NCBI RefSeq assembly: GCF_020144665.1
Contig: NZ_JAAHBQ010000060.1
Location: 1 to 37,011 of the forward strand
Reading direction: 5' to 3'
Source: Oscillatoria salina IIICB1
Lineage (GTDB): Bacteria > Cyanobacteriota > Cyanobacteriia > Cyanobacteriales > SIO1D9
Length of the DNA: 37,011 nt
The notes under the pieces are model-generated. The model did not search any database. It was given only the letters and a program-made list of their open reading frames with translations, and was not told the DNA's origin. The translations under genes and the position numbers were made by a program. Shown here in pieces: positions 5,247 through 32,951 of the stretch (positions within the stretch are counted from its first letter, which is position 1; each line of letters starts with the position of its first letter).

Positions 5247-8200
5247 TTGAAAATTGCGAACCTGGAAATTGCTGGCTACCATGCGATCGCCTTAATTTAC
5301 GAAAGTGCTAATTCCTTAGTTTATCGTGCTATCCGCGATCGAAAACAACAACCTGTTATCCTGAAAGTTCTCAAACAAGACTATCCTACCCCCCAAGAGT
5401 TGACTCGATATAAGCAAGAATATCAAATTACCAGTCAACTCAATCTCGATGGCGTAATTAAAACTTATGGTTTAGAAACTTATCGCCACACGCTAGCGAT
5501 CGTCCTTGAAGACTTCGGAGCAATGTCTTTAAAACAATTGCTCGACTTAAAATTATTGACAAATTTATCTTTAAATAAATTTCTCGATCTGGCGATTAAA
5601 ATAACACAAATTTTGGGTCAGATTCACAGCAATAATGTAATTCACAAAGATATCAACCCTAGTAATATTCTCTTAAATCCAGACACCGAACAACTCAAAA
5701 TTATTGATTTCGGGATTGCCACTCAATTAACTCGCGAAAATCCTACACTAAAAAATCCTAGCATCTTAGAAGGAACCTTAGCTTATTTATCCCCAGAACA
5801 AACCGGACGGATGAACCGTTCCTTAGACTATCGTAGCGATTTTTATTCATTAGGAATTACTTTTTACGAACTCTTAACCCAAAAATTACCTTTCGAGACT
5901 AAAGATCCCTTAGAATTAATCCACTGTCATCTTGCCAAAATTCCCCCTTCACCCCAAGAAATCAACCCAGAAATCCCCTCAGCAATTTCCGCGATCGTTA
6001 CGAAATTAATCGCCAAAACTGCCGAAGACAGATATCAAAGCGCTTGGGGAATTATCGCCGATTTACAAGAATGCACCCATCAATTAAAAACAACCGGAAA
6101 AATTTCACAATTTCCTTTAGCTGCTCGTGATTTTGCCGAAAGATTTCAAATTCCCCAAAAACTATATGGTAGGGAAAAAGAACTTGCTACCTTACTAGCC
6201 GCATTTGAGCGAGTTGCAGAATCTCACCTGGTAAATAAAAGCCCATCTAACTACAACCAAAAACAAGTCGAAATCATGTTAGTCGCAGGCTATTCCGGAA
6301 TCGGCAAATCATCTCTCGTCGCGGAAATTCACAAACCTGTCACCGAAAAACGAGGCTATTACATCGAAGGTAAATTTGACCAGTTTCAGCGCAATATTCC
6401 CTACTCAGCAATCGTAATTGCTTTCCAAGAATTAATTCGCCAACTATTAACTGAAAGCGAAGCCCAACTGAGTCAATGGCGCCAAAAATTGTTAGCCGCT
6501 TTAGGACAAAATGGTCGAGTGATTACTGATGTAATTCGGGAAGTAGAACTAATTATTGGTAAACAACCGCCAGTCCCAGAATTGGGAGCAATGGAATCGC
6601 AAAATCGCTTTAACCTTGTCTTCCAAAACTTCATTCGAGCATTTTGTTCTCCTCAGCATCCTTTAGTGATTTTTCTCGATGATTTACAATGGGCAGATTT
6701 GGCAACATTGAAGTTGCTTCAATTAATCATTCTTGATGAGCAAACCCGACATTTATTTTTCATCGGAGCTTATCGCGATAACGAAGTTAGTCCGAGTCAT
6801 CCGTTAATGATGACTTTAAGAGCGATGCAAAAACAACAAGTAATCATCAATCAAATTAACTTAACACCTTTAGCTGAAGACAACCTTAGTCAACTAATTG
6901 TTGATACCTTACATCAAGACATTGCCAAAATACAACCATTAGCCAAATTGATTTGGCAAAAAACTGAAGGAAATCCTTTTTTTGTAAATCAATTTCTTAA
7001 TACTCTCCACTTAGAAAATTTAATAACTTTTGATTTTCAAAATCATCAGTGGCAGTGGAATATTGCAGAAATTAAAGCCAGGGAAATTACTGATAATGTA
7101 GTCGAGCTGATGATTGTTAGAATTAAAAAGCTGCCAGAATTAACCCAAAAAATCTTGGGATTAGCAGCTTGTATCGGAGCATTTTTTAGCTTAAATACTC
7201 TCGCCATTATTAGTGAGAAATCTCTAAATACTGTTTTTTCAGCCTTAATTCCTGCACTTCAGTCGGGGTTAATTTTGCCTCAATCAAAGCTAGACCAAGA
7301 GTTGTTAATTCAAGATTATAAATTTCTGCACGATCGCCTGCAACAAGCAGCTTATGCTTTAATTAACGAGTCACAAAAACAAGCTGTTCACTTACAAATT
7401 GGTCGTTTATTGTGGGAGAATACTAATCCGAAATCTTTGTCTGATGAAATATTTAAGATCGTCGATCAACTTAATTTAGGTATTGAATTAATTAGCGATC
7501 TTAGAGAACGCCACGAAATTGCTAAACTGAATTTACTTGCAGGTAAAAAAGCGAAAACAGCTACCGCTTATCAAGCAGCATTTACCTATTTCGCCCAGGG
7601 AAGAAAATTTCTTTGTGCAGATAATTGGCAAAATGAATATGAATTAAGTTTTACTCTCTATTTAGAAGCCGCAGAAGCCGCTTATTTATTAAGAGATTTT
7701 GCTCGGATGGAGCAGTTAATGACAGTGTTGCTTCAGCAAGGGAAAACTTTGGTAGAAAAGGTGCAAGTGTATGAAGTTAAAATCCAAGCTTTAAAGACAC
7801 AAAATCAATTACAACAAGTATTGGATTTGGGTTTAGAAATCCTCAAATTATTAGGAGTAGATTTACCCCCTAAACCTAGTCAAACTGAGATTCAAGCTAG
7901 TTTAGCACAGACACAATCAGCTTTGGCAGAAAGAAGCATTGAAGACTTAATTAATTTACCATTAATGACCGATCCGGGCAAATTGGCAGCTACTCGAATT
8001 CTCTTAAATCTTTGTCCCGTTGTTTACATGATGAGGGCGGAAATCTTACCTTTAATTTCCATTCAACAAGTGAATTTAGCCCTTAAATATGGTAATGCTG
8101 CCGCTCATACTCATGCTTATGCTAATTATGGCTTAATTCTTTGTGGAATTGTTGGCGATCTTGAATCGGGTTATCAATTCAGCGAACTCGCTTTAAATTT

Positions 8201-11200
8201 ATTAAATAAATTGAATGCTCAACCACTAAAAGCGATGACTGTATTTGTAACTAATTATTTTATCAAACATTTAAAAATTCCCGTTCGAGAAACTTTAAAA
8301 TCTATGTTAGAAGCTTATACTATCGGGCTGGAAACTGGAGATTTAGAACACGCTGCTTATTCAGTTTGTCGCTACTGTTACCTTGGCTATTTTACCGGAA
8401 CTATTCCCCTTGCTGACTTAGAAAAACAGATGCGTAGCTACCAGGAGTTTTTAGCTCAAATTAAGCAAGAAAATGTTTTAGAATTACACGAACTTCATCA
8501 TCAAGTAGTATTAAATTTGTTGAATTCAGTTGACGAGCCTTGGCGTTTAACGGGAGAATTATTTGATGAAGTAAAAATGCTGAAAGCTTATCAGGACAAC
8601 AATTATTTGGTAGCAATTTGTCATTTATATTTACATAAAATTATTCTTTATTATCTGTTTAATCAAGAGCAAAAAGCTTACCAAAATTTAGCTTTAACTG
8701 AAGAATATATTCAGGGAGAGTTAAGTTCATTTTTGGTTCCTCTTTTTTATTTTTATGATTCTCTTTCTCGGCTGGCAATTTACGAACATCAAACTAATCT
8801 TGAACGAGAAAAAATCTTAGCTAAAGTAGAAATTAATCAGCGCAAGATGGAAAAATGGGCGCATTCTGCTCCGATGAATTATTTGCATAAATTCGATTTA
8901 GTCGCAGCAGAATGTTATCGGGTGCTGGGTTGTTATCTGGAAGCAATGGAATATTACGATCGCGCGATTTTCGGAGCTAAAAATAATCAATATCTTCAGG
9001 AAGAAGCTCTTGCAAATGAACTGGCTGCTAAGTTCTATTTAAACTTAGGTAGAGAGATAATTGCCCAAACTTATCTAACTGAAGCACATTATGCTTATAG
9101 TTGTTGGGGTGCGACTGCTAAAGTTAGAGATTTAGAAGCAAAATATCCTCAATTACTGGCTAATTGTTTACCTTCACATAGGGAAACAACTGAGTTGAAA
9201 GAAGTTCGTGTTAGCAGTGCTACTTTGTCGGGGAAAAACTTCGATTTGGTGGCGGTAATGAAAGCTTCTCAAGCTATTGGTAGTGAGATTTTACTTGATA
9301 AATTATTGAGTAAATTAATGAAAATTTTGCTTCAGAATGCTGGTGCGGAAACAGGTTTGCTGTTGTTGTCGAAATCGGGCGAATGGGTAATTGAAGCATC
9401 TCAGCAAACTGCGTCGTCAAAAATTCCAGTTTTCAAGTCAATTTCTCTAGAAAATCGCTTACCTCTCTCAGCGATTAACTATGTGATGCGAACTCAAGAA
9501 ACTGTAGTCGAACATGATGCTTTCCACGAAGGCAAATTTAGTCAAGATGCTTATATTAAAAAATATCAAACTAAATCATTTTTGTGTGCGCCGCTATTGC
9601 ATCAAGGACAACTTAGTGGTATTATTTATCTAGAAAATAATTTAACAACTGGTGCTTTTACTCCCGCTCGTTTAGAAATAATTCAACTATTATCTAGTCA
9701 AGCCGCGATCGCGATTACTAATGCTCGACTTTATGCCGAGGTACGAGAAAACGAACGACGCTTGAGTCAATATTTGGAAGCTATACCAATTGGGATCTCA
9801 GTTCACGATCGCCACGGACAAGCAAACTATGCTAATCAAACTGCCAAGCAGTTATTCGGTATGGAAGTGCTACCACAAGCGACAATCGAGCAGTTTTCCT
9901 CACTTTATCAAATTTATCGCGCGGGCACTAGCGAATTGTATCCTGTCGCAGAACTACCGATCGCGCGATCGCTTCAAGGTGAAACTGTCAAAATGGACGA
10001 TCTCGAACTTCACCAAGGAGAACAAATTATTTCTCTGGAAGTTTCCGCGACACCAATTTTTAATGAGACAGGTGAGATCGAATACGCGATCGCCACTTTT
10101 CAAGATATTAGCGATCGCAAGCGCGTCGAACAATTAAAAGATGAGTTTTTAGCTAATACTTCTCACGAATTACGTACACCTTTACAGGGAATTATGGGAC
10201 TTGCTGAATCTTTAATTGAAGGTGCAACTGGTTCCCTACCTCCAGAAACAATTTCTAATCTGGCTACGATTGTTTCTACAGGGCGGCGTTTATCCAGTTT
10301 AATTAACGATATTCTTGACTTTTCTCAACTAAAATATGACAGTCTTGAACTCGCTCTCAAACCAGTAGGAATACGAGAAATTACTGATGTAGTTTTGACT
10401 TTAAGCAAACCTCTGATTGGACAAAAATCCCTTCAGTTAATTAATCATCTCGAAGTCGATCTACCCCTAGTAAATGCCGATGAAAATCGCCTCCAACAAA
10501 TTATGTACAATTTGGTTGGGAATGGAATTAAATTTACTGATTCGGGTACAGTATCAGTCTCTGCTACTCGCCAAGAAAATTATCTCAAAATTACTGTTGC
10601 CGATACGGGAATCGGGATTTCTGACGAGCAATTAACGAAAATTTTTGCTTCTTTTACTCAAGGAGATGGTTCTACTGCTAGAATCTATGGAGGAACGGGT
10701 TTAGGTTTGGCGATCGCAAAGCAATTAGTTGAATTACACGGCGGACAAATTGAAGTTGAGTCTACTCTCGGTGTAGGTTCTCGTTTTAGTTTTACTCTTC
10801 CTTTAGCTCCTTTTTCTGAAGCTAAAACTGTTTCAGGTATAGCAGAAAAAATTCAAAAAGTCAAGGAAATTGAGCCAGTTTTAAAACTAGCAAATACTCT
10901 GACTACTCAGCAACTAAACTCAACGAAATCTTCGGAACACAAACTAACAATTTTAATTGTCGATGACGAACCAATAAATTTACAAGTATTAACCAATTAT
11001 TTATCGGGGGAAAACTACGATCTCGTTCCCCTCAGCAATGGGATCGAAGCTCTCGCAGCGATCGCCGCAGGACTCAAACCCGATCTCATCTTACTTGATG
11101 TGATGATGCCTCGTCTAACAGGTTACGAAGTTTGTCGGATGATCCGTCAACAATATTCCCTTGACGAATTACCAATTTTGTTGTTATCCGCCAAAGATTT

Positions 11201-12212
11201 AGTTACTGATTTTCTCACAGGTATTAATTGCGGCGCTAATGATTATTTAATTAAACCAATTAGCAAAAAAGAACTACTAGCAAGAATTCAACTACACGTC
11301 AAATTAACTAACTTAGAAGCCGTCCGCAAAGCCGAAGCCAAAGAACGAGAAAAAGCCGCTCAACTGCAACAAACTTTAGCTGAATTACAACGCACTCAAG
11401 CCCGACTAATTCAAACCGAAAAAATGTCTAGTTTAGGGCAAATGGTCGCAGGTGTAGCTCACGAAATTAATAATCCTTTAACCTTTATTCAAGGCAATAT
11501 TAATCATACCAGAAATTACACCCAAGAATTGTTAAATTTATTAGCTTTATATCAAAAATATTATCCCGAACCAGTCGCCAATATTCAAGCAGAAATTGAA
11601 GCTATCGAGCTCGAATTCATCCAAGAAGATTTGCCCCAAATCATCGATTCAATGCAAACAGGAGTCGATCGCATCAATGAAATTGTCACCTCACTGAAAA
11701 ACTTTTCCCGACTAGACCAAGCAGCCCGAAAAATTGTCGATATTCACGAAGGTATAGATAGTACCTTGGTCTTGTTACAAAATAAATTGAAATCAAGCGG
11801 AAATTTCCCCCAAATTACGATCGTCAAAAACTACCAAAAATTACCGAAAATCGCTTGCTACCCAGGTCAACTAAACCAAGTTTTTATGAATATTGTCGCT
11901 AACAGTATTGATGCTCTTCAAGAAGCTCATCGCAGTCAGCCAACTATTACCATTCATACCCAAATTGCCGAGAATAACACAATTGAAATTCGCATTGCTG
12001 ACAATGGTTTAGGGATGAGCGAAGAAATACGGGAAAAAATTTTCGATCCTTTCTTTACCACCAAACCAGTAGGTCAAGGAACTGGTTTAGGTTTGAGTGT
12101 TAGCTATTCAATTATCGTCGAACGTCACGGTGGTGAGTTGAGTTGTGCTTCTGTACCGGGAGAGGGTAGCGAATTCGCGATCGCGCTTCCTTTAGAAGTT
12201 AATCAAATTTGA
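5247..12212 (+). CDS. Giant Ser/Thr kinase-AAA-GAF-PAS-HK-REC-HK signalling protein
   Basis: This 2321-residue protein resembles the HstK-type fused kinases of cyanobacteria. A protein-kinase-like domain (about 1-275) has K40, HKDINPSN (D135, N140) and DFG (D154), but no glycine-rich GxGxxG loop, and the catalytic-loop lysine of HRDLKPxN is N137. An AAA ATPase follows, with Walker A GYSGIGKS (348-355) and Walker B IFLDD (478-479). A long helical, TPR-like region runs to about 1330. Then come GAF (about 1335-1495), PAS (about 1510-1625), histidine kinase 1 (H1640 in TSHELRTP, ATPase G box GGTGLGLA), a receiver (D1951 in LLDVMMP, K in YLIKP), a short coiled coil, and histidine kinase 2 (H2072 in VAHEINNP, ATPase box GTGLGLSV). 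No membrane segment or DNA-binding domain is visible. Ligand and output are unknown. Confidence 0.93.
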
Positions 12213-12718: not shown

Positions 12719-13177
12719 CCTCGATCGAATTGATTATACCAACTTCTTGCGAGCAAGGAAAATTTGATAAATTATTTAACAATATTTAGGTATTATTGGC
12801 AGCCGCAAAAAGTCAAAAAAAATGAGTTTGAAAAAGTAGGTGGAAATCAGTTAATTCCCTTTTCGATCGAGGGGGAGACAGAAGTTGCTTGAGAATCTCA
12901 ACATAGTCCTAGCGATCATAGGTAGGGGAATCCACACAGTTTCACTATCTGACCCCAGGTTATACTCTCGAGAGAGTGGCGATCGCGCGACATCCTCGTC
13001 TACAATCGCTGAAGAGTCGTCGGTTACAACACTTACAATCTCAGGGAAATTACTTTTCTGTAAAAATTCTTAATGATAATTCTCATTAAATCCGTTTAAG
13101 CTAGCAAGTTAGGCGGTTTGAAAGCAAATTTTGTAAAGATTAATACAGCAAGCTGATTATAGAACAGGAAATTGGAC
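12719..13177. other. 459-bp gene-free region upstream of ho1
   Basis: This stretch separates the small minus-strand gene from ho1. It contains a HIP1 site near 12979, a 10-bp palindrome CTCTCGAGAG (12965-12974), and the Fur-like dyad at 13070-13089. A 62-codon reading frame from TTG at 12885 has a purine-rich GGGGGAG upstream but low-complexity content, so I do not call it a gene. A long ho1 leader or a small RNA could lie here. Confidence 0.5.
13070..13089. promoter_or_regulatory. Candidate Fur box (iron operator) upstream of ho1
   Basis: TTAATGA (13070-13076) and TCATTAA (13083-13089) form a perfect 7-bp dyad around TAATTC. Read in reverse it gives AATGAGAATTATCATT, close to classical Fur boxes. 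A -10-like hexamer GATAAT (13075-13080) lies inside the dyad, so binding would block a promoter there. The dyad ends 88 bases before the ho1 ATG. This is a sequence-based inference. Confidence 0.55.
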
Positions 13178-13894
13178 ATGAGTGTTAATTTAGCTACAAT
13201 GTTACGCGAAGGGACGAAAAAGTCCCACACAATGGCAGAAAATGTTGGTTTTGTCAAGTGCTTTCTGAAAGGAGTTGTCGAAAAAACTTCTTATCGGAAA
13301 TTAGTTACCAACCTCTATTTTGTCTATTCCGCAATGGAAGAAGAGATGGAACGGCTGCAACACCATCCCATTGTCTCGAAAATTTACTTTCCTGAATTAA
13401 ACCGCAAGCAAAGCTTAGAGCAAGACTTGTACTATTATTACGGTGCAAACTGGCGCGAACAGATTGCACCCTCAGAAGCAGGAAAAGCTTATGTAGAGCG
13501 CATTCACGAAGTAGCAGCCAATCAACCCGAACTCTTAGCCGCACATTCCTACACCCGTTACTTAGGAGATTTGTCTGGAGGACAAATTCTTAAGAAAATT
13601 GCCCAAAAAGCAATGAATCTCAACGAAGGAGAAGGTACAGCTTTTTACGAATTTCAAGAGATTTCTGACGAAAAAGCCTTTAAGCAAAAATATCGTCAAA
13701 CGCTCGATGAATTGCCTGTAGACCAACAAACAGCAGAACAAATCGTTGATGAAGCGAATGATGCCTTTGGTATGAACATGAAACTGTTTAACGAACTAGA
13801 AGGTAATCTGATTTTAGCGATCGGTCAGATGTTATTCAACAGCTTAACCCGCCGCCGCAGTCGTGGCAGCACCGAGTTAGCCACCGCCGAATAA
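13178..13894 (+). CDS. ho1: Heme oxygenase (biliverdin-forming)
   Basis: Heme oxygenase opens heme to biliverdin IX-alpha, CO and iron, using ferredoxin in cyanobacteria. Biliverdin is the precursor of the phycobilins and also of phytochrome chromophores. The protein begins MSVNLATMLREGTKKSH, with H17 as proximal heme ligand, and carries the distal-helix motif YLGDLSGGQILKK. From this ATG it is 238 residues, the usual length. An in-frame TTG six bases upstream is rejected because AGGAA is better placed for the ATG. A Fur-like dyad upstream suggests iron control and a strong hairpin follows the stop. No bilin reductase gene is adjacent. Confidence 0.97.
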   Translation: MSVNLATMLREGTKKSHTMAENVGFVKCFLKGVVEKTSYRKLVTNLYFVYSAMEEEMERLQHHPIVSKIYFPELNRKQSLEQDLYYYYGANWREQIAPSEAGKAYVERIHEVAANQPELLAAHSYTRYLGDLSGGQILKKIAQKAMNLNEGEGTAFYEFQEISDEKAFKQKYRQTLDELPVDQQTAEQIVDEANDAFGMNMKLFNELEGNLILAIGQMLFNSLTRRRSRGSTELATAE

Positions 13895-14060: not shown

Positions 14061-15164
14061 ATGATACAGACTCAACAAAAGACTTTTTCGACACCAGATT
14101 TTCAATCAAGCTTTTTAGATGCTAAGTTTTATACTGACCCAAACCTGCTTGCTCGAGAAAAGCAAAAGATTTTTCGACGGAGTTGGCTTTATGTCGGCGA
14201 TGCAGCTAACTTATCAAGAGCAGAAACAGTCTGGGTGACAGAAGTAGCTGGGTATAGTATTCTCATTATTCGAGATAGTAATCATACTTGGCAAGCTTTT
14301 CACAATGTTTGTCCTCATCGTGCTTCTGTGTTAGTGCCTGAAATAGGAATTCATTCCCTCAAAAGGTTAGTTTGTCCTTATCATGCTTGGGTTTATAACT
14401 TGAATGGTCAGTTAAAGGGAATACCTGCAAAAAATCGCTTTCCCTCTCATTTTTGCGATGAAGATTTTCCTTTAAAAAAAGTTCGCTGCGAACAATGGTT
14501 AGGATTTATCTTTGTTTGCTTCAGTGAAGATACACCTCCTTTGGAAGAGTATTTAGGAGAAATTATTGGTAGTGTGAAAGAGCATCATACTGAAGCTACT
14601 AAGTTATTAGTTAAAAAACAGTATTCAGTCGCTTGTAACTGGAAAAATTATCATGATAATACTCTTTGTGATTATCATGTTCCGATAGTGCATCCTCATA
14701 CCCTCAACCCTATTCAAGGGTCAGTTTGCTATTACGAGCATTTTTTCGATCGCTATGTCAACCTATTATATACACCAACTACTAAAGAGTGGCGATCGCG
14801 CTATCCTAGCTTATCCCATTTAAGCGATCGCGCTCGTTTCGGTTTCTTTACCTATGGAATTTTTCCTAATTTACATTTGTTAGCCTTACCTAATGGGGTA
14901 TTAGCTTGGCTGCGTATCGATCCAGTAACAGTTGAAAGTTGTCTGGTGAATCTAGAGATTTATGGTATCCCTGATTTTAGTCCTCCGGCGGCTGAATTAG
15001 CAAGTGATTTTGAAGCTTTTATGAGCGAAGATATGAAAATTACCGAAGGGGTACAAAAAGGATATGCTAGTGGTGTTTATCAAGCTGGTTTAGCAAACGA
15101 ACTTGAAGCACGTATTTTGCACCAGCAGCAGTTAATTCGTTCTTGTTTACAAGCAGATAATTAA
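14061..15164 (+). CDS. Rieske non-heme iron oxygenase, alpha subunit type
   Basis: This 367-residue protein belongs to the ring-hydroxylating oxygenase alpha-subunit superfamily. The Rieske [2Fe-2S] ligands are C84, H86, C105 and H108 (CPHRA and CPYHAW). The mononuclear iron site is NWKNYHDNTLCDYHVPIVH, with H206 and H211 as ligands and D204 as the likely bridging acid. The third ligand is probably D324 in a SEDMKITEGVQKG segment. No membrane segment is visible, unlike pheophorbide a oxygenase or Tic55. No reductase gene is nearby, so the electron donor is probably a cellular ferredoxin. The substrate cannot be inferred. A terminator separates it from ho1, so co-function with heme breakdown is not supported. 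Confidence 0.88.
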   Translation: MIQTQQKTFSTPDFQSSFLDAKFYTDPNLLAREKQKIFRRSWLYVGDAANLSRAETVWVTEVAGYSILIIRDSNHTWQAFHNVCPHRASVLVPEIGIHSLKRLVCPYHAWVYNLNGQLKGIPAKNRFPSHFCDEDFPLKKVRCEQWLGFIFVCFSEDTPPLEEYLGEIIGSVKEHHTEATKLLVKKQYSVACNWKNYHDNTLCDYHVPIVHPHTLNPIQGSVCYYEHFFDRYVNLLYTPTTKEWRSRYPSLSHLSDRARFGFFTYGIFPNLHLLALPNGVLAWLRIDPVTVESCLVNLEIYGIPDFSPPAAELASDFEAFMSEDMKITEGVQKGYASGVYQAGLANELEARILHQQQLIRSCLQADN

Positions 15165-31784: not shown

Positions 31785-32951
31785 ATGACTATTGAAATTG
31801 ATTACCGTTTTCCACCGGGAATAGATGCAGCTAAACAAGCTAAAATAATCGCGATCGGGCAAACTGCGGGAACGTGGGATGCGCGTTTTGCTCATCGAGA
31901 AAAATCTTTGCGATCGCATTTAGCGGAGGTTGTTAAGCTGGAAACTGACAATCAAGGTTATAGTATCGCTACAATTCGCTTTCCAGAGATCAACGTCGAG
32001 AACGATATCCCTAGTTTATTAACAGCTATATTCGGCAAATATTCAATGGCAGGGGCAGGAAAAGTCATTTCAGTTCGTTTGCCTCAAAATTACGGTACGC
32101 GTCCCAAATTCGGTATTAGCGGCGTTAGAGAGCAATTGTCAGTGGAATCTCGCCCTTTGGTAATGGCAATTTTTAAGCCAGCTTTGGGGCTTTCGGCTGA
32201 AGATCATGGCGAGATTTTTGCTCAAGTTGCTCGTGCGGGTTTAGATATTATTAAAGATGATGAAATTTTAGGTGATTTAGAAGTAGCACCAACACGCCAA
32301 CGTTTAGCAGCTTGTCGGCGAGTTATCGAGGAAGTAAAAGACAAAACTGGGCGAACTGTTCTCTATGCGGTTAATGTTACTGGAAAAGCAGATCGGTTAA
32401 TTGAAAAAGCGCGTTTATTAGTTAAAGAAGGCGCAAATGCACTATTACTAAATGTCCTAACTTATGGCTTTTCTGTATTAGAAGCATTAGCTACAGATCC
32501 AGAAATTAATGTACCTATTTTCGCACATCCTGCCTTTGCTGGGGCGATGTGTGCGGCTGGAGATACAGGATTAAGTTATTCTGTGGTTTTAGGGACATTA
32601 ATGGCGTATGCTGGGGCTGATGCAGTGTTGTATCCCGCCCACTATGGTAGTTTACCATTCGATCCCGGGGAAGAAGCAAAAATTAGAGACGAATTGCGAT
32701 CGCGCAACGTTTTTCCTGTCCCCAGTGCGGGAATACATCCTGGGATTGTCCCCCAAGCTTTAACTGATTACGGCACGGATGTTATCCTCAATGCAGGAAC
32801 CGGAATTATGGATCATCCCGACAGCCCCGCTAGTGGTGTTAAAGCCTTTTTTGCAGCTTGGGAAAGAGTTAAGAATAAGCAATCTTTTGAGTTAGAAAGT
32901 TTACCTGAAGGAGCTTTAAAACAAGCTATTGCTAAATGGGGTAAGAAATAA
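31785..32951 (+). CDS. mtnW: RuBisCO-like protein, probable DK-MTP-1-P enolase (MtnW)
   Basis: This 388-residue form IV RuBisCO-like protein probably converts 2,3-diketo-5-methylthiopentyl-1-phosphate to its enol in methionine salvage. The metal-binding KDDE motif is intact: K157 (the carbamylated lysine in RuBisCO), D159 and E160 in GLDIIKDDEI. K131 in FKPALGLS corresponds to RuBisCO K175, while the K of the following KPKLG position is Ala. The HPAFAGAM segment matches enolase-type RLPs. The following genes, mtnX and mtnB, act in the same pathway, which settles the assignment better than sequence alone. Microcystis RLP has been shown to work in this pathway. mtnA, mtnK and mtnD are not in the window. 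Confidence 0.92.
   Translation: MTIEIDYRFPPGIDAAKQAKIIAIGQTAGTWDARFAHREKSLRSHLAEVVKLETDNQGYSIATIRFPEINVENDIPSLLTAIFGKYSMAGAGKVISVRLPQNYGTRPKFGISGVREQLSVESRPLVMAIFKPALGLSAEDHGEIFAQVARAGLDIIKDDEILGDLEVAPTRQRLAACRRVIEEVKDKTGRTVLYAVNVTGKADRLIEKARLLVKEGANALLLNVLTYGFSVLEALATDPEINVPIFAHPAFAGAMCAAGDTGLSYSVVLGTLMAYAGADAVLYPAHYGSLPFDPGEEAKIRDELRSRNVFPVPSAGIHPGIVPQALTDYGTDVILNAGTGIMDHPDSPASGVKAFFAAWERVKNKQSFELESLPEGALKQAIAKWGKK

Follow-up and report, generated by a model that had tools for sequence, protein, structure and literature searches.

The window, by which is meant the whole stretch of 37,011 nucleotides analyzed here, comes from Oscillatoria salina IIICB1, a cyanobacterium whose genome is available as 5.96 Mb in 163 contigs. 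On its forward strand at 13178–13894 is ho1, with its ATG at 13178, encoding a heme oxygenase of 238 amino acids; the gene had been named as such in the initial annotation, and its product matches PF01126 with an E of 2e-90. Heme oxygenase performs the committed step from heme to the phycobilins and releases iron. After ho1 there is a gene for a Rieske/ring-hydroxylating oxygenase (14061–15161). Elsewhere in the window, 5247–12209 encodes a 2321-residue protein with Ser/Thr kinase, AAA, GAF, PAS and histidine-kinase parts plus a receiver, and at 31785–34321 genes for RuBisCO-large-like, HAD hydrolase and class II aldolase proteins stand in a row that looks like a methionine salvage cluster.

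In the 459-base intergenic region before ho1 there is a dyad, TTAATGATAATTCTCATTAA at 13070–13089, without strand of its own, whose arms, TTAATGA (13070–13076) and TCATTAA (13083–13089), are perfect complements across the spacer TAATTC, just as the initial annotation had it, and the letters GATAAT are present inside it at 13075–13080. A bare dyad of this type is neither beyond chance nor rare by itself: the window has 51 inverted repeats with arms of 7 and spacers of 0–10, against a mean of 37.4 in five Markov shuffles, and the intergenic region has one, with at least one occurring in 33% of 300 shuffles. The site is far above chance because it is conserved upstream of ho1 in other cyanobacteria. 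Is it then the dyad that has been conserved? Judged from the alignment of orthologous blocks, the conserved unit is not the perfect dyad, which is kept in only 4 of 62, its arms being completed here by G13075 and T13087 (22 and 18 of the 62 blocks, respectively). The dyad is the middle of a putative switch region of some 60 bases, where it overlaps the predicted FurA binding spot.

That region, the conserved ho1 promoter block, is of approximately 62 bases (13059–13120, forward strand) and was delimited by pairwise identity and by R1, a sequence-only model. The 110 ho1 loci collected, 30 from whole genomes and 80 from genome contigs, gave 89 non-redundant upstream regions after loss of one that was too short and 20 near-duplicates (90% identity). 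An anchor, TCTCATYAAAT with at least 9 of the 11 letters, was passed by 63 of the 89; one of these (L112) was left out because of its short flank, R1 was built from the blocks of the other 62, and L112 together with the 26 regions failing the anchor test made up a held-out set of 27. Across the 62 sequences mean pairwise identity is 0.67 in the block versus 0.26 and 0.31 in the flanks, and ho1 third codon positions, for codons compared without gaps, reach 0.45. The block spans 22 bases before to 40 after the anchor, and sequence outside it is random-like. R1 detects it in all 27 held-out regions (E 7e-16 to 8e-6), so that it is present before ho1 in 89 of 89 regions, a set biased to close ho1 relatives for which a 291-genome sample of the class provides the fairer count. 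A13063, T13071, A13072, T13097, A13098 and T13102 are invariant in all 89, and TTAA at 13070–13073 is broken in two. The held-out blocks sit some 20 to 580 bases before ho1, distances to the gene being approximate for L086, L090 and L093, where a start codon is absent at the assumed offset. In two Microcoleus loci (L043, 2423–2486; L050, 170–233) the block lies approximately 515–580 bases before ho1, not the approximately 100 otherwise seen, and these appear to have either a long leader or an insertion. No long (62-base) conserved ho1 promoter was found in the open-licence papers searched.

The attachment of the block to one gene is close. A 44-base pattern allowing up to three mismatches matches 26 of 40 relatives, once each (control 0), and 76 of the 291 class genomes, again with one match each and none for the reversed control. 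All 76 matches precede ho1: coordinates place 67 of them no more than 500 bases ahead of a listed ho1, and tblastn found a ho1 stretch after each of the other 9, of which one is truncated at a contig end and one lies in two frames. With R1 at E of 0.01 or less there is a match in 145 of the 291 genomes, the other 146 being without one at that filter setting. At E of 1e-3 or less, where the matches carry 26 family labels by hand count, 133 of 133 are upstream of ho1 (113 by coordinates, 9 and 11 otherwise). Between 0.001 and 0.01, among the matches listed, five are before a listed ho1 (genomes G048, G058, G074, G289 and G290), six are elsewhere in genomes having their own ho1 at another place (G117, G162, G169 twice, G232 and G239) and are taken as chance, and six are without placement (G050, G069, G208, G254 and G256 twice). 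In the O. salina genome R1 scores 61.6 bits (E 3.3e-16) at 13059–13120 and the next best match has an E of 0.1, making the block single copy. A looser pattern matched viral contigs 18 times, never one that also encodes a heme oxygenase, and R1 gave one weak score there (E 0.013). A block so strict and so tied to one gene means that control of ho1 is under strong selection, and it offers a small, testable DNA target for how iron and light join in pigment synthesis.

The GATAAT inside the dyad had been put forward as a −10 hexamer, implying that transcription begins about 90 bases ahead of the ATG, with a leader of that length. T13077, the letter that makes GATAAT, is in just 2 of 62 blocks, and this candidate was rejected as unconserved; what is invariant instead is TAnnnT at 13097–13102, where T13097, A13098 and T13102, the first, second and sixth letters by which a −10 element is recognized, are kept in 62 of 62 and in 27 of 27 held-out blocks, 89 of 89 in all. 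On the forward strand here it reads TAAGCT, the probable −10 hexamer, and from its position we infer a start near 13109 (± 2 bases) and a leader of approximately 69 bases. These values fit the conservation better than those first proposed, and the conserved block thus shifts the likely start of the ho1 transcript. No TTGACA-like −35 is seen by eye at 16–18 bases from TAAGCT. A promoter consensus scan listed no promoter at the block; it returned three sites, no more than shuffles give (3.8), and its only nearby forward candidate, 13173–13200, lies where ho1 begins.

That Fur controls cyanobacterial ho1 is already known, and the present site is a new example. The FurA-type box ATGATAATTCTCATTAAAT (13073–13091, forward strand) begins 105 bases ahead of the ATG. 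Its orthologue is the box ATATAAATTCTCATCAAAT predicted for FurA at ho1 (all1897) of Anabaena sp. PCC 7120, located at 107 bases and scoring 14.34 out of a possible 17.2 (PMC4005646 Table 1): the gene is the same, the distance nearly so and 15 of the 19 letters agree. The Anabaena 19-mer is identical in the Nostoc loci L105, L106, L108 and L111 and in L022; four of these loci (L022, L105, L106 and L108) also figure in the block alignment. The difference is that a 19-mer was predicted for Anabaena, and the sections of PMC4005646 that deal with it do not describe the 62-base frame, TAnnnT or a second unit. A table in a 2026 review, citing a 2012 paper, places ho1 under FurA together with hemB, hemC and further genes (PMC13421787); a tetrapyrrole review (PMC4500134) mentions neither Fur nor FurA.

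A FurA matrix made from four furA/isiB boxes (PMC4005646 Table 1), with ho1 left out, finds its top-scoring upstream site exactly where the box lies in 36 of the 62 sequences and inside the block in 43, counts that are not independent as the sequences are related. The fixed offset that ranks second for this matrix is 13 bases further upstream, at the repeat of the unit AATTCTYAWT. In the window the box at 13073–13091 ranks 6th of 73,986 positions. Against shuffles of the 450 bases upstream of ho1, the Anabaena FurA consensus matches at 14 of 19 letters (P 0.15, not significant alone), AATGATAATNATTCTCATT at 15 of 19 with N counted, which is 14 of 18 (P 0.015), and the E. coli Fur consensus at 13 of 19 (P 0.105). 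It is by the 14 of 19 consensus letters, the matrix offset and orthology with the listed ho1 box that the site counts as a FurA box. For 54 of the 62, a 7-1-7 Fur/Zur model likewise starts best inside the block, at any of three offsets. The idea of a Fur-family site before ho1 is thus supported by the Anabaena orthology, the review table and the FurA matrix, with the perfect dyad no longer taken as its unit. Also in its favor, the genome has three FUR-family genes, one of which may encode FurA, and upstream of isiA in O. salina (L186, contig C9), where the FurA consensus has a P of 0.055, TTCTCAATAAGC on the reverse strand is identical to 12 bases of an Anabaena furA box.

The sequences themselves provide a conserved block that occurs once in the genome and is linked to ho1, an invariant TAnnnT and a match to the Anabaena FurA box. 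They point to the dyad being part of the operator of a promoter dedicated to ho1 and kept in many families of cyanobacteria, with FurA competing at its box, and to this we accord slightly more belief than disbelief. RNA polymerase would recognize TAAGCT as a −10 without a good −35 and start near 13109. The FurA box, along with a weaker FurA-like unit 13 bases upstream, would cover the −35 region and the spacer, and FurA with its metal would bind there in O. salina in competition with either polymerase or an activator bound to the upstream repeat, which would link the transcription of ho1 to iron and to redox state. On this model iron could act in either direction, and Anabaena FurA is described in PMC4005646 and PMC4788461 as both repressor and activator. 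Simple iron-dependent repression of ho1, as first envisaged, is not borne out: PMC4092027 has Synechocystis ho1 and ho2 mRNA declining under iron limitation.

Other points count against the FurA model. In the 27 held-out blocks its part of the sequence drifts, to 0.79 from 1.43 bits per column, which is partly selection as 26 of the 27 were set apart by their weak core; the upstream repeat and TAnnnT, unlike the FurA part, do not drift. A search of the genome for the 19-mer at up to three mismatches found 54 matches, the control also giving 54, and since R1 likewise has its next match only at the E given above, no regulon is visible with this form of the site. Two further regulators were considered and rejected: NtcA has its best site in the block in only 13 of 62 sequences, and PfsR reportedly did not bind the Synechocystis ho1 promoter.

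The most invariant part of the block is not the FurA core but a direct repeat, KTAA-N6-KTAA, at its upstream end. The sub-element concerned, TGTAAAAATTCTTAAT (13059–13074, forward strand), has a period of 10 and on the reverse strand is like HLR1, the site of RpaB, while its right part is also the second, weaker FurA-like unit. Written as TGTAARAATTCTTAAY, it has a mean information of 1.15 bits per column in the 62 blocks and 1.17 in the 27 held-out ones. As this resembles an RpaB site, Fur may not act alone. It is possible, though rather unlikely, that the invariant part is mainly an activator site for light-harvesting genes, read for instance by RpaB (OmpR-type) on the HLR1-like repeat at 13057–13074, reverse strand, and that Fur is minor or lineage-specific. 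The repeat shares with HLR1 its reverse strand, direct form and period of 10, and the best fixed offset of an HLR1 matrix is exactly at it, the repeat holding the top site of 14 of the 62 sequences and the block that of 29; the repeat is also kept where the FurA core has drifted. Measured against the HLR1 description (two KTTACAWW, period 10, at approximately −45 to −66 for activation), the best offset is in the block and the second repeat is degenerate in most, reading TTAA here and in most blocks, not GTAA. In none of the 62 training blocks, and in just one of the other 27, does it carry the HLR1 letter. However, its first letter varies in one direction only, T 71 and G 5 in the 76 class pattern matches with no other letter, T 26 and G 1 in the 27 held-out blocks, and the GTAA forms are close to the HLR1 consensus.

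Position and fit are less favorable to RpaB. From the inferred start the repeat is at approximately −52 to −35, between the activating and the repressing range, and the FurA matrix scores higher at its own best offset (7.9 versus 2.8, from matrices not strictly comparable). Speaking for RpaB, it is reported to activate phycobilisome-type genes from approximately −45 to −66 (PMC13421787), and Synechocystis ho1 is strongly correlated with phycobilisome genes (median 0.72; PMC4770689); no paper of the open-licence literature searched brings RpaB, HLR1 and heme oxygenase together. Because the variable letter changes only to the HLR1 letter, weight was moved towards RpaB and towards a composite reading, and away from FurA and from the unnamed regulator considered below. 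In the composite, RpaB or another OmpR-type activator may read the repeat with FurA as a modulator. Stated in full, an old single-copy ho1 promoter, 62 bases found under at least 26 family labels and stricter than third codon positions, would be bound at overlapping sites by FurA, responding to iron, and by an OmpR-type factor responding to light/redox, which could be RpaB, beside a −10 without a −35; we offer this tentatively, with doubt outweighing conviction. If true, heme breakdown for pigment would be set by iron and light/redox at one site.

An unnamed ho1-specific regulator, such as a heme, bilin or oxygen sensor, might instead recognize the block, its FurA likeness being secondary. The attachment of all 133 stronger R1 matches to one gene and the one good match in the O. 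salina genome, unlike what is expected of a global regulator's box, are in keeping with that, as is the length of the block, which exceeds that of a FurA box; the boxes that FurA has at other genes nevertheless pick out the same offset, FurA is reported to act on ho1 in a table entry of PMC13421787, and such a regulator seems improbable. A role for the block as an element of the 5′ leader RNA is very improbable despite conservation past the inferred start, where 13110–13121 on the forward strand, seemingly the beginning of the transcribed region, has TTAGG and then a T-run in many species, since there is no conserved fold and no Rfam match, and TAnnnT is promoter-like.

The canonical palindromic Fur/Zur box, with two TGATAAT half-sites in 7-1-7 arrangement, is TGATAATNATTATCA; the window contains its left half, TGATAAT, its right half fits at 4 of 7, and the 13 of 19 letters at the ho1 site compare with 16–18 of 19 elsewhere in the genome. 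At up to three mismatches the E. coli 19-mer has 17 matches at 13 places in the genome (control 7). Neighbors were assigned for seven of the 13, and at five of these seven Pfam names them: hemB; CobW_C; CobW and thrS; a TonB receptor; and radical SAM plus formamidase (L210). For the boxes L209 and L211 the neighbors are without a Pfam match. The hemB, CobW-type and thrS neighbors are presumably zinc-linked and so point to Zur, the regulator to which the E. coli-like 7-1-7 form may belong, and on that account reading the ho1 dyad as an E. coli-like box lends Fur little support. In consensus tests against shuffles there was nothing notable upstream of a second TonB receptor, zur or perR; the E. 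coli consensus gave P 0 of 200 upstream of a first TonB receptor and 0.005 upstream of furA, and AATGATAATNATTCTCATT gave 0.04 upstream of ho2. Near-perfect palindromes around AATGATAATCATT or AATGATAATCGTT occur before hemB, CobW-type genes, thrS and a TonB receptor (L212, at 9055–9073 of contig C111, and L219, L220 and L221); these may be Zur sites, and if they are, HemB would be under zinc control.
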